From Dyella jiangningensis (GTDB lineage: Bacteria; Pseudomonadota; Gammaproteobacteria; Xanthomonadales; Rhodanobacteraceae), in assembly GCA_000632805.1 (NCBI GenBank), contig CP007444.1, positions 2,406,772 to 2,470,771 on the forward strand: a stretch of 64,000 nt of DNA, written 5' to 3'. This document shows, in pieces, positions 3,260 to 17,238 of the stretch. Both the position numbers and the translations under genes were made by a program. The notes beneath the pieces were generated by a model that made no database searches, had not been told where the DNA came from, and saw only the letters and a list, made by a program, of their open reading frames with translations. The stretch's first letter is position 1, and the number at the start of each line of letters is the position of its first letter.

Positions 3260-4599
3260 CGGTGATACACCACCGACAGCATGTATTCGTTCTCGTGGTA
3301 GCTCTGCCCGGCCACCGTGCTGTGGCGGATCTGCCGCGTATAGGACGCGCGCCAGCTCCACTTGTCAGTGAGCTGATGGCTCAAAGCCGCACCAAAGCGG
3401 TAATCCTTATCGGTGCGGTCGATACTGTGGTAATCGGTATGGTCGACATTGAGGAACGTCGACAGCAGCAACGTGGGCCTCAGCTTGTAGTCGAGGCTGA
3501 AGGCGCCGTTGCGTTCCGTCTGGTCGAACGTCGGGTTGTTGACATAGGAAAGCTTGCGGTAAAGCGGCGCGACGGTCAGGGTCAGCCGTTCGATGTGATA
3601 GCTGTAGGTCGCCTGTACGCTCTGGTCCAGGTAGACCTGCGGGTCGATGACCATCGAGCCGGTATTGATGCCGCGCGTCGGATCATTGATCAGGTCCAGC
3701 GGGTTCGCCGGCACATTGGTCATGCTGTCGACGATCTTCTGGCCCGGCTGCAGCAGCATGTCCTGCGCCGCGTCCGAATACTCGTAGACGCCCATCAGGC
3801 TGAAACTGTTGCTGAGGCTCGGCCGCCAGCCCAGCGTGACGCGTGCCATGGGCTTGGACGCGCTCGGCGCATTGTTGAAGTCGATGTAGGTCCAACCCAG
3901 CAGCGCGTCCACGTCGAAGTCGCGCAGCGTGCGCACGTAATGCCCGTACAGCGAATTGCGCGTGTAATCGGGGCCGCTGCTGTTGTTGCGGAAATCGACC
4001 CGCTGCGATTCCGCGTTCAGCGATACCTGCGTGGTCGGACTCACGTCGCGGATCACGCGGAAGGCGCCCAGGCCGCGGGATGAATCGAAGTCATCGACCT
4101 TGGAGGCATAGCTGTTGAAGTACTTCACCTCCGCCTGGCCGCGCGTCGCCTCGTTGAAGTTGAAATGCAGCACCGGGCCCAAGGCCAGCACGTTGGTCTG
4201 CTGCTGGTTGTCCGGTGCGTTGCTGGCCAGCGTATCCACCGGCTGGATACCCGCGTCATCCTCAATGGTGAAATCCAGCCGCTGCGGCATGATCGACCAG
4301 TTGGCCTGACCGGTGAGCGTCGTGCGTGTCTGGCTGTCGTACTGGCTGTTGGTGTAATCGAGGTATTCCAGCGTGCCGACAACATTGGCCTGGAAGCTGG
4401 AGCCAAGCTCCTGATAGGCAAAGTTGACGCCGGGGATGATGATGTTGGTGCTGGCCGGGTTGCTGGTGGTCAACGCGATGTTGTCGCTGTGCTCGATGCT
4501 GCCGAACAAGGCGTAGCCGAACGTTCCCGCAAAGGACACGCCGGGCACGGCAACGAGCGCGAGCATGGTGGCGCGAGCGAGCTTGCTGTAAGCCGGCAT
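3256..4599 (-). CDS. Outer-membrane beta-barrel protein of the exopolysaccharide locus
   Basis: A 447-residue protein with a signal peptide (MPAYSKLARATMLALVAVPG, cleavage near VSFAG), followed by alternating aromatic/polar strands throughout and ending MLSVVYHR. It contains many beta-hairpin-like stretches such as SFSLMGVYEYSD and WRASYTRQIR. This pattern is that of the outer-membrane protein family associated with PEP-CTERM/exosortase loci (TIGR03016-like or BBP2-like). It probably forms part of the outer-membrane secretion path for the polysaccharide or a surface adhesin; the exact role is unknown. The start at 4599 was chosen over longer frames because only it provides a signal peptide. 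It lies 67 bases after the kinase-like gene. Confidence 0.8.
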   Translation of the reverse strand: MPAYSKLARATMLALVAVPGVSFAGTFGYALFGSIEHSDNIALTTSNPASTNIIIPGVNFAYQELGSSFQANVVGTLEYLDYTNSQYDSQTRTTLTGQANWSIMPQRLDFTIEDDAGIQPVDTLASNAPDNQQQTNVLALGPVLHFNFNEATRGQAEVKYFNSYASKVDDFDSSRGLGAFRVIRDVSPTTQVSLNAESQRVDFRNNSSGPDYTRNSLYGHYVRTLRDFDVDALLGWTYIDFNNAPSASKPMARVTLGWRPSLSNSFSLMGVYEYSDAAQDMLLQPGQKIVDSMTNVPANPLDLINDPTRGINTGSMVIDPQVYLDQSVQATYSYHIERLTLTVAPLYRKLSYVNNPTFDQTERNGAFSLDYKLRPTLLLSTFLNVDHTDYHSIDRTDKDYRFGAALSHQLTDKWSWRASYTRQIRHSTVAGQSYHENEYMLSVVYHR

Positions 4600-15758: not shown

Positions 15759-16367
15759 TCAGCGCGACCAGATCCACCAGGCCAGCAAGGCCGCCAGGAT
15801 CACCAGCGCCGCCCATCCAATCCGCTCGATGTGCTTGTGCAGGATGCGCTCGGCACGCTCACCGAAAATGCGGATCAGCAACGCGAGCAACCACACGCGC
15901 TTGCCACGACCCACGGCCATGCAGACCAGGAACGGAATCACCGGCACGCCCACGATGCCCGCCGCCCACGTCACGAACTTCATCGGCACGACGGGCTGCA
16001 GTGCGGCGAGCGCCAACACCACCAGCAGACCGAGCCAATGCTCGTTCATCTGCATGCGCAGATTATCGACGCCTTTTTCGATCGGCGCCAACAGATGCAA
16101 CGAATCCAGCAATGGCGACAACGCGTGGAACGCCCAGTGGCCCAGCGCGTAACCGACCAACGAACCCAGCAGCGAAAACAGCAGGCTGATGTTCGCGTAG
16201 AAGAACGCCTTGTGACGCTTGCCGAGCATCATCGGCGCGAGCATCACTTCCGGCATGATCGGGAAGATGAAGGCCTCCACGAAGCTCAAACCGCAGAGGT
16301 AGTACAAAGCCCTGGGGTCACGCGCCCATGTCAGTGCGCGCGCATACAGCGGTCCGAACAGACGCAT
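15759..16367 (-). CDS. YqaA family membrane protein (DedA/SNARE-associated fold)
   Basis: A 202-residue inner-membrane protein with about five hydrophobic segments, among them LSFVEAFIFPIMPEVMLAPMM, which is typical of YqaA/DedA-superfamily proteins, and a C-terminal helix ending LLAWWIWSR. A conserved Gly/Pro/Arg-rich segment (AVGRGKRVWLLALLIR) matches the SNARE-associated fold. Relatives are linked to lipid flipping and envelope homeostasis; the substrate here is unknown. AAGGAA lies ten bases before the chosen ATG. It sits between pcm and nlpD. A long inverted repeat fills the space to pcm. Confidence 0.85.
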   Translation of the reverse strand: MRLFGPLYARALTWARDPRALYYLCGLSFVEAFIFPIMPEVMLAPMMLGKRHKAFFYANISLLFSLLGSLVGYALGHWAFHALSPLLDSLHLLAPIEKGVDNLRMQMNEHWLGLLVVLALAALQPVVPMKFVTWAAGIVGVPVIPFLVCMAVGRGKRVWLLALLIRIFGERAERILHKHIERIGWAALVILAALLAWWIWSR

Positions 16368-16390
16368 GCTCAGGAATTTCCTTGTGGGTA

Positions 16391-16548
16391 GGGCCTGTTT
16401 GATGGCTCCGCGTGGCTCGCGCCGGGATCTGCTTGCCCGCAGGCCAACGAAGACTGAGGGCGTGTATGTCGATACACAGCCGAGTGATGACGCTGGCATG
16501 CGGGTAAACAGACCCGGCCCGGGCTGCTCGGAGTCATCAGACAGGCCC
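16391..16548. repeat. 158-bp imperfect inverted repeat (palindromic element)
   Basis: The segment is a single long palindrome centred at 16469/16470. The outer 20 bases (GGGCCTGTTTGATGGCTCCG against the reverse complement of the right end) differ at two positions, and the centre GTGTATGTCGATACAC is a perfect stem with a four-base loop. Between these, similarity continues with mismatches and an indel. It fills the gap between pcm and yqaA and could form a hairpin in RNA from the operon or be a MITE-like insertion. Confidence 0.75.
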
Positions 16549-16557
16549 TTGAGCGCA

Positions 16558-17238
16558 TCAACCGATGCCGCCGAGCAATGGCACGAAACTGACCGCGCCC
16601 AGTTCTTCTTGGATGAAATCACCCTGCCCGTCGCCGCGCATGCGGATCAGCATCTGGTTGCTGGGCGAACCGACCGGCGCCACCAGCACGCCCGTGGGGC
16701 TCAGCTGATCGAGGATGGCATGCGGAATCGCATCGCCCGCCGCGGTCAGGATGATGGCGTCGAACGGCGCCTCGTCGGCCCAGCCGAGCTTGCCGTCATC
16801 GTGACGCGAGCGGATGTTCGTCAGGCCCAGCTGTCGGAAGCGGCGGCGCGCCTGGCGCAGCAATTCTTCGATGCGTTCGACCGTGTAGATCTGGGGCACG
16901 ATCTGCGCCAACACCACGGCCTGGTAACCGGAGCCAGTGCCGATTTCCAACACTTTCTGCGGCACGCCGAATTCCAGCAGCGCCTCGGTCATGCGCGCCA
17001 CCACCCACGGCTGGGAGATGGTCTGGCCATGGCCGATCGGCAGCGCGGTGTTTTCGTAGGCGCGCGAGTGCAGCGCCTGGTCGATGAAATGATGGCGCGG
17101 CGTGTTGCGGATCACGTCGATCACGCGCTGGTCGCGGATGCCCTCTTCCTTGAGCTTGGTCGCAAGGCGATCGCGCGCGCGCTGCGAGGTCATCCCCTCG
17201 CCTTTCAATGCGGATGGCGGCAGTGGATGCACGTTCAT
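16558..17238 (-). CDS. pcm: Protein-L-isoaspartate O-methyltransferase
   Basis: A 226-residue enzyme that methylates L-isoaspartyl residues in aged proteins with SAM. The SAM motif is VLEIGTGSGYQAVVLA, preceded by the family segments PRHHFID and LPIGHGQTISQPWVVARM. It ends LLGGIG, close to the usual length. The start at 17238 follows the surE stop by four bases with a GAGGG-type site just upstream; an internal ATG at 17193 (MTSQRARD) is an alternative. It is coupled with surE as in most gammaproteobacteria. Confidence 0.96.
   Translation of the reverse strand: MNVHPLPPSALKGEGMTSQRARDRLATKLKEEGIRDQRVIDVIRNTPRHHFIDQALHSRAYENTALPIGHGQTISQPWVVARMTEALLEFGVPQKVLEIGTGSGYQAVVLAQIVPQIYTVERIEELLRQARRRFRQLGLTNIRSRHDDGKLGWADEAPFDAIILTAAGDAIPHAILDQLSPTGVLVAPVGSPSNQMLIRMRGDGQGDFIQEELGAVSFVPLLGGIG

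Follow-up and report, generated by a model that had tools for sequence, protein, structure and literature searches.

The 158-bp interval at positions 16391-16548 of the window (by which we mean the whole 64,000-nucleotide stretch of Dyella jiangningensis contig CP007444.1 analysed here) very probably belongs to a MITE family as a one-armed copy. Members of the family are most likely moved by IS5-type transposases and their body is probably selected to fold, the copy in the window being itself a probable relic. Members of this palindrome family are dispersed, gene-less elements that are bounded by terminal inverted repeats (TIRs), lie at TNA or TA sites, and are missing from orthologous sites in relatives. 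An earlier note, made from the letters of the window, had read the interval as an imperfect palindrome resembling a MITE or a mobile palindrome, a view borne out by the other copies, the terminal inverted repeats, the TNA/TA flanks, the empty orthologous sites, and the insertion sequences (IS) with matching ends that are described below.

The palindrome is a bounded element with exactly the limits that the earlier note had given it, from G16391 to C16548 (Table 1). As had also been claimed, its 20-base ends differ at two positions. Its central sequence, GTGTATGTCGATACAC, begins at 16462; over 26 bases, the two ends match less well than those of most copies. An ungapped mirror match covers only 86 of the 158 positions, so that the palindrome is a gapped one. 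Folded as RNA, the + strand forms one long hairpin of -112.1 kcal/mol, compared to -63.4 +/- 3.9 in 200 shuffles (z -12.6), and the - strand reaches -99.5 (z -10.3). Arm 1, for which the + strand is the sense strand in the window copy, was recognised at 16417-16526 on that strand with 103 bits by R1, a covariance model of arm 1 from whose construction the window copy had been excluded; in the R1 alignment, three mini-hairpin positions of the window copy are deleted. The two-armed, 265-bp form that lies behind the window copy was beyond the view of the earlier note.

Table 1. Features of the palindromic element and its surroundings in the window
Feature	Position	Strand	Basis or remark
Whole element	16391..16548	+	158-bp MITE copy without arm 2; inverted ends, family alignment
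Left terminal inverted repeat / outer stem 5' side (GGGCCTGTTTGATGGCTCC...)	16391..16420	+	Fold; 21 of 26 bases equal the right end
Right terminal inverted repeat / outer stem 3' side	16519..16548	-	Fold and end comparison
Arm 1, imperfect hairpin with family motif (family: CAAGGAAGA..GA / GACYGAGYGATGACGC)	16421..16518	+	Family alignment, model R1
Apical stem-loop of arm 1, GTGTATGTCGATACAC	16462..16477	+	Position read in the sequence
Approximate site of the missing mini-hairpin CCC-NNN-GGG and arm 2	16516..16526	+	Comparison with full-length copies
Left flank GTA, putative target-site remnant	16388..16390	.	Sequence
Right flank TTG, unlike the left flank; duplication decayed or unprovable here	16549..16551	.	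Sequence
AAGGAA, ribosome-site-like	16378-16383	-	Read in the sequence; between the element and the yqaA ATG
yqaA-like gene	15759..16367	-	ORF, ATG at 16367; name from the earlier note
pcm-like gene	16558..17238	-	ORF; related gene of high identity in all 20 searched genomes of the genus

A DNA search matched the element at 15 places in its own genome, the window copy included, which disposes of the uniqueness that, in the earlier note, would have spoken against a mobile element; most of these copies, when aligned with wide flanks, are longer than that in the window. The core pattern was found in at least 114 DNA stretches from named Dyella, Rhodanobacter, Luteimonas, Lysobacter, and related records. 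Among 190 flank-distinct copies, which range from 150 to 311 bp, 149 measure 265 or 266 bp; the search for ends was bounded at about 330 bp in this set, as well as in the terminal-repeat set and in the 19 distant loci. The intact layout consists of the left repeat, arm 1 (the palindrome core), the mini-hairpin CCC-NNN-GGG, arm 2, and the right repeat, such that the terminal inverted repeats form an outer stem of ~30 bp that carries two hairpin arms of ~100 nt. The terminal repeats match at 22-26 of 26 bases in most of the 116 copies compared (of 124, with eight at locus edges dropped). In 46 of the 54 Dyella-type copies and 32 of the 40 distant ones, the loop of the central mini-hairpin is GNA when one strand is read and TNC when the other is; GNA loops in DNA and UNCG loops in RNA are unusually stable. 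At these lengths, the elements are too short to hold a transposase gene, and the frames of at least 50 codons present in 145 of 157 full-length copies were called under a very loose start rule, small chance frames being possible. No autonomous form that carries a gene between its arms was found among 18 core matches that have no near right end: none has a farther one within its locus, and several run off the contig. Three of the longest copies, of 310-311 bp (L368, L440, and L442), as well as L040, contain a nested REP-like palindrome of ~45 bp (GGCGCCAT..ATGGCGCC, with a GAGGAGCGAGG-type tail) in either orientation. Locus L040 also carries, at 3647 and ~200 bases past the element core, the string CTGTCTCTTATACACATCT, which we take to be sequencing-adaptor sequence and which is likely an assembly artefact of that contig.

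Structure statistics were obtained from 54 of the 77 full-length copies after removal of near-duplicates; for alignment A1 (arms), 43 of the 54 were taken and the window copy was excluded. Standard pairs occupy 96.2% of the 5173 pair cells, compared to 79.2% after shuffling and 31-39% when the structure is slid along the alignment, and the covariation score is 0.472, compared to 0.141 for shuffled and 0.06-0.07 for slid structures. Two-sided changes are seen at 73 of the 96 pairs. All four Watson-Crick pairs occur at many positions of the outer stem and of the arm 2 stem, arm 1 being more conserved, and within the apical stem-loop, some pairs vary two-sidedly across the family (chiefly columns 72-87 and 77-82) and others are invariant. 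The unpaired core of arm 1, read on the + strand, contains three tandem G·A / A·G mismatch steps that are identical in all 54 copies.

The two arms also differ by strand. The ratio of G·U to A·C cells is 69:15 in arm 1, 17:70 in arm 2, and 49:30 in the outer stem, where most of these cells come from one pair, so that the wobble is strand-specific, with G·U in arm 1 and its complement in arm 2. Consistently, arm 1 folds better on its sense (+) strand in 51 of 52 copies of the Dyella type and in 28 of 31 distant ones, and arm 2 on its sense (-) strand in 52 of 52 and 24 of 31, respectively. RNA and DNA energies prefer the same strands, and the mini-hairpin loop is GNA or TNC depending on the strand, so folding leaves both RNA and single-stranded DNA as the candidate folded molecule.

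This strand preference follows from the relationship between the arms: in distant relatives, arm 2 is seen to be an inverted homologue of arm 1. When the arm 1 model was applied to eight full-length loci, it clearly matched arm 2 on the opposite strand in three, the 27-bit arm 2 matches (e.g., in L253) being no better than the antisense matches of arm 1 itself. When 15 first and 15 second arms were aligned together, a common CAAGGC..GAG..ATGAGCGA..AACGC pattern emerged, and a joint model of the arms scores both alike in L248 and L249, from genomes that did not contribute to the model, and unequally in L251, L297, L226, and L128. It misses arm 2 in three of the four Dyella-type loci given to it (L002, L005, and L010), and hence, arm homology in the Dyella-type copies rests on the distant relatives. 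The unpaired arm motif is kept across the phylum, as judged from a comparison that included 36 sequences (32 of the 40 distant loci plus four). Because the arms are inverted homologues, both strands of the element fold alike family-wide, into a sense arm, a mini-hairpin, and an antisense arm.

In overlapping samples, model R1 had matches in 18 of 20 genomes at the level of the genus, in 30 of 151 for the order, and in 34 of 369 for the class. Model R2, built for the arms, matched 107 of 398 sampled Pseudomonadota genomes in 51 of 213 genera, including families outside the class. The length is kept at this distance as well: 30 of the 40 distant loci, among which some (e.g., L257 and L263) have ends misplaced by a few bases, hold elements of 262-269 bp, and 17 of 19 hold elements of 264-267 bp. 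The end sequences vary widely (GAGCCTG.., GGGCCTGTTAACAC.., GGGCGTGTCATC.., GGGGGTGTTCTC.., and AGGAATCTCTG..). One query of the type found in genome G325 retrieved four plasmid records and nothing from E. coli genomes or from phages.

The flanks and empty sites of these elements point to transposition. Flank statistics were computed for 143 GAG-ended and 38 GGG-ended copies, with 9 of the 190 that have other ends set aside. Identical 3-bp flanks are found in 38 of the GAG-ended copies, compared to 17.3 expected when flanks are re-paired, a background that arises because TNA is preferred as the target (present on both sides in 52 of the 143). For the GGG-ended copies, TA stands on both sides in 25 of 38, with 25.4 expected by re-pairing, the near invariance of these flanks making a duplication statistically unprovable for this type; another target-site duplication count took 100 of 116 copies. 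Simple insertion is seen in the comparison of ..cgccTTA(element)TAGtac.. (L213) with the empty ..cgccCTAGtac.. (L359), and further pairs of occupied and empty sites were found, such as L428 and L140. Thus, target-site duplication is evident in the family, from the 38 of 143 copies and the empty sites, and the window copy, for which the earlier note had suggested looking for one, has no clean duplication (GTA and TTG). Insertions are almost exclusively intergenic: 2 of 100 copies lie within an ORF call, a count confined to this set since ORFs overlapping the element were masked in the set of 190. Of 150 copies, 44 lie directly against a stop codon, compared to 154 of 751 TNA sites (20.5%) in control gaps, a modest excess; this count, like those of site occupancy, neighbour distance, and gene orientation, relies on genes called by a simple codon-score script. 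In several genomes, copies occupy the same or nearly the same spot of a homologous gap (L381, L390, L410, and L407 compared with L050), possibly an insertion hot spot or shared old insertions.

The IS5 family includes a DUF4096-type subgroup that makes TNA or TA duplications, and the ends and TNA/TA flanks of our elements resemble those of such IS. Those in L168 and L177 have like ends and are flanked by TAA/TAA and TCA/TCA, respectively, and genome G325 contains five DUF4096 IS copies with the ends GGGCGTGTTAACACTA and TA flanks, in which 15 of 16 bases equal those of the MITE ends of the same genome. The DUF4096 IS element in locus L166 has ends (GAGCCTGTTCAAAGTCTC) that are identical over 18 bp to those of copies L074, L085, L124, and L225 of other genomes; this copy is rearranged, with the left and the right end each present twice, and the sub-terminal bases inspected in it hold no arm motif recognisable by eye. 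PF13340 was found in 9 of 26 chosen MITE-bearing genomes, with like ends within the same genome in G325 only. The D. jiangningensis genome yielded no DUF4096 match, and the ends of its two PF01609 copies differ from the MITE ends, so that no resident transposase was identified for the window copy. These two copies (L148 and L149, at 1.93 and 2.01 Mb) are identical DDE IS with the ends CAGGCTGTTGAGAAGCTCC.

The element sits 9 bp past the stop codon of the 16558..17238 gene, which we take to be pcm, as did the earlier note, and 7 bp ahead of the AAGGAA of yqaA, in a gap that belongs to the gene order surE-pcm-yqaA-nlpD, according to the gene names in that note. Of 20 genomes of the genus, three carry an element at the pcm-yqaA site (G000, G013, and G064, the genome of the window included); in the other 17, only 23-34 bases separate the pcm stop codon from the yqaA ATG, and the element is absent. 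The one-armed form at this site is common to three related species, so the window copy is probably old. The 158-bp length is found in three copies, of which two are the window copy and its orthologue in G013 (L001 and L228). Because two-armed copies are the rule, the window copy appears to have lost arm 2 and the mini-hairpin through an internal deletion, and it is probably a decaying relic, for which a current role in the expression of pcm and yqaA is neither shown nor needed.

A role of the element as an RNA device of the host was considered, whereby the hairpin in a read-through transcript would be cut or would block RNA polymerase and thus separate pcm from yqaA expression. This develops the proposal of the earlier note that a large hairpin in the transcript could split surE-pcm from yqaA-nlpD, a hairpin that is so far a predicted fold. 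The very stable fold of both strands and the strand-specific wobble pairs, which suit RNA, would be expected of such a device. The operon is transcribed on the - strand of the window, where the sense arm would be arm 2, that is, the absent one, and sense-arm loss is also suggested by arm-2-deleted copies with two co-directional neighbours within 150 bp, in which the lost arm is the transcription-sense arm in six cases and the other arm in none, compared to 28 and 23 for full-length copies. However, this 6:0 ratio is small and post hoc, and it falls to 7:2 within 300 bp (full-length, 33:25) and to 9:5 without a distance limit (full-length, 49:37); a first, smaller count of sense-arm deletions in operons gave 8:2. 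Sense-arm loss in co-directional gaps is therefore only a weak lead. Moreover, a consensus scan of 16300-16700 detected neither an intrinsic terminator (a GC stem followed by a T run) nor a sigma-70-type promoter, and the family displays no bias in gene orientation: among 181 of the 190 copies, 103 lie between co-directional, 47 between convergent, and 31 between divergent genes, compared to 95, 52, and 34 expected (p = 0.49), and host regulation through such a bias was rejected on this ground. Altogether, we consider the host device unlikely. Even more improbable is an origin as a structured host gene for a non-coding RNA that was repeated by chance, with which the strong covariation would agree. 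It is contradicted by ends that behave like transposon ends and by the empty sites, and the elements examined have no Rfam match at the gathering score; a relaxed threshold yielded only sub-threshold miRNA look-alikes, which we attribute to chance. The gathering matches in the examined loci are tRNAs and one cobalamin riboswitch, the latter at 1234-1396 of L310, where its final 22 bases run into the margin of an element copy (1375-1640). A REP/BIME-type repeat mobilised by a Y1 (RAYT) transposase would likewise consist of two inverted imperfect hairpins in many intergenic copies, yet our elements are TIR-bounded insertions with TNA/TA flanks, and their units of ~100 nt contrast with REP hairpins of 20-40 bp, according to the part of PMC3733652 drawn on here, so that we deem this origin the most improbable of all.

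Another possible, although rather improbable, reading is that the elements are purely selfish relics in which the ends alone matter and folding is not selected, the covariation of the stems arising as a mutational side effect when templates are switched or hairpins repaired. Template switching is able to restore stems, as described in the portion of PMC8794818 that we draw on, and templated repair of palindromes that have no selected function could equally yield covariation. In agreement with this possibility, transversion- and transition-type double changes are nearly equal in number in the outer stem (172 vs 195) and in arm 2 (194 vs 159), but not in arm 1 (34 vs 92), and stepwise change through G·U does not predict such a frequency of transversions. 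The changes between similar copies fit both processes. In the outer stem, copies that are at least 96% identical differ by 26 single and 6 both-sided changes, and those that are 92-96% identical by 50 and 119, as counted over overlapping and hence non-independent copy pairs; 43 disjoint close pairs gave 54 single and 50 both-sided changes. Because single-sided changes prevail among very similar copies and many two-sided ones follow soon after, mismatches seem to be quickly resolved, and two-sided changes that mostly affect single pairs and are often transversions are compatible with strong selection as well as with templated repair acting on a folded strand. Nevertheless, the double changes of the close pairs are isolated (84 of 90 runs) rather than arranged in tracts, the wobbles are strand-specific by arm, the length is held near 265 bp, and the unpaired arm motif is the same across the phylum without being homogenised, with the tandem G·A steps intact in 54 of 54 Dyella-type copies, all of which argues against folding being unselected.

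The preferred reading, a MITE family with a body selected to fold, can be cast as the following mechanism. IS5-family transposases of the DUF4096 type would most likely recognise the ends and move the element in trans, and insertion would yield target duplications of 3 bp (TNA) or 2 bp (TA). The body is probably selected to fold as a single strand, as the covariation and the strand-specific wobble suggest, and each arm would work on its own strand, such that the element looks alike whichever strand is read. In what we regard as the weakest step, the folded state may serve the replication or transposition of the element itself rather than the control of host genes, a role that we favour because there is no orientation bias relative to host genes and the two strands are equivalent. 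A more speculative extension, which we hold only tentatively and think rather unlikely, would treat these elements as phylum-wide structured DNA parasites with a folded single strand as the working form: the paired ends would make up a hairpin duplex accepted by IS5-type transposases, either strand could be mobilised by virtue of the inverted arms, and the ends would be swapped among IS5-type hosts while the fold and the 265-nt length are kept.

A MITE linked to an IS5-type IS is a known kind of element, but the palindrome family itself seems to be undescribed in the open-licence PMC literature, where we found no description of it, and in Rfam. For a MITE, it is unusual that an element without genes retains both a length of ~265 bp and its fold in many families of one phylum while most of its stem bases, and even the ends that face the transposase, are replaced, judging in part from PMC10969869. 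The family constitutes a large natural data set on how the pairing of palindromes is maintained, by stepwise compensation or by templated repair, provides a testable case of a DDE transposon with a possibly selected folded single strand, and would help to annotate intergenic regions that now seem empty. Parvovirus terminal repeats and integron attC sites are T-shaped or hairpin folded single strands in which the shape is kept while the sequence varies; they resemble the palindrome family in shape only, by analogy, with no relation claimed. REP and BIME sequences are likewise inverted hairpin pairs in intergenic DNA, REPs not being known to carry TIR or target-site duplications, unlike the palindrome family with its ~100-nt arms, TIR, and duplications. 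ERIC, NEMIS/Correia, and QMITE are palindromic MITE-like repeats that fold in transcripts. They have other sizes and duplications, 7-9 bp in the case of QMITE2 (in the part of PMC10969869 cited here), and are set apart from our elements by description. So is the Chunjie MITE of Geobacter uraniireducens, which is likewise intergenic with conserved ends but differs in length, at 178-235 bp, and for which the passages of PMC10969869 at hand do not mention an inverted-arm architecture. MITEPsy1 of Pseudomonas syringae is similarly short and gene-less, with IS-like inverted ends ('IS5?'), a duplication of a few bp, and presumed mobilisation in trans; according to the sections of PMC3189936 used here, it is 100 nt long, with 18-nt ends and a 4-nt duplication, and its well-conserved copies occur within part of the P. 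syringae complex, whereas the palindrome family is ~265 bp long and two-armed, extends over many families of Pseudomonadota, and combines TNA/TA flanks with several end sequences.
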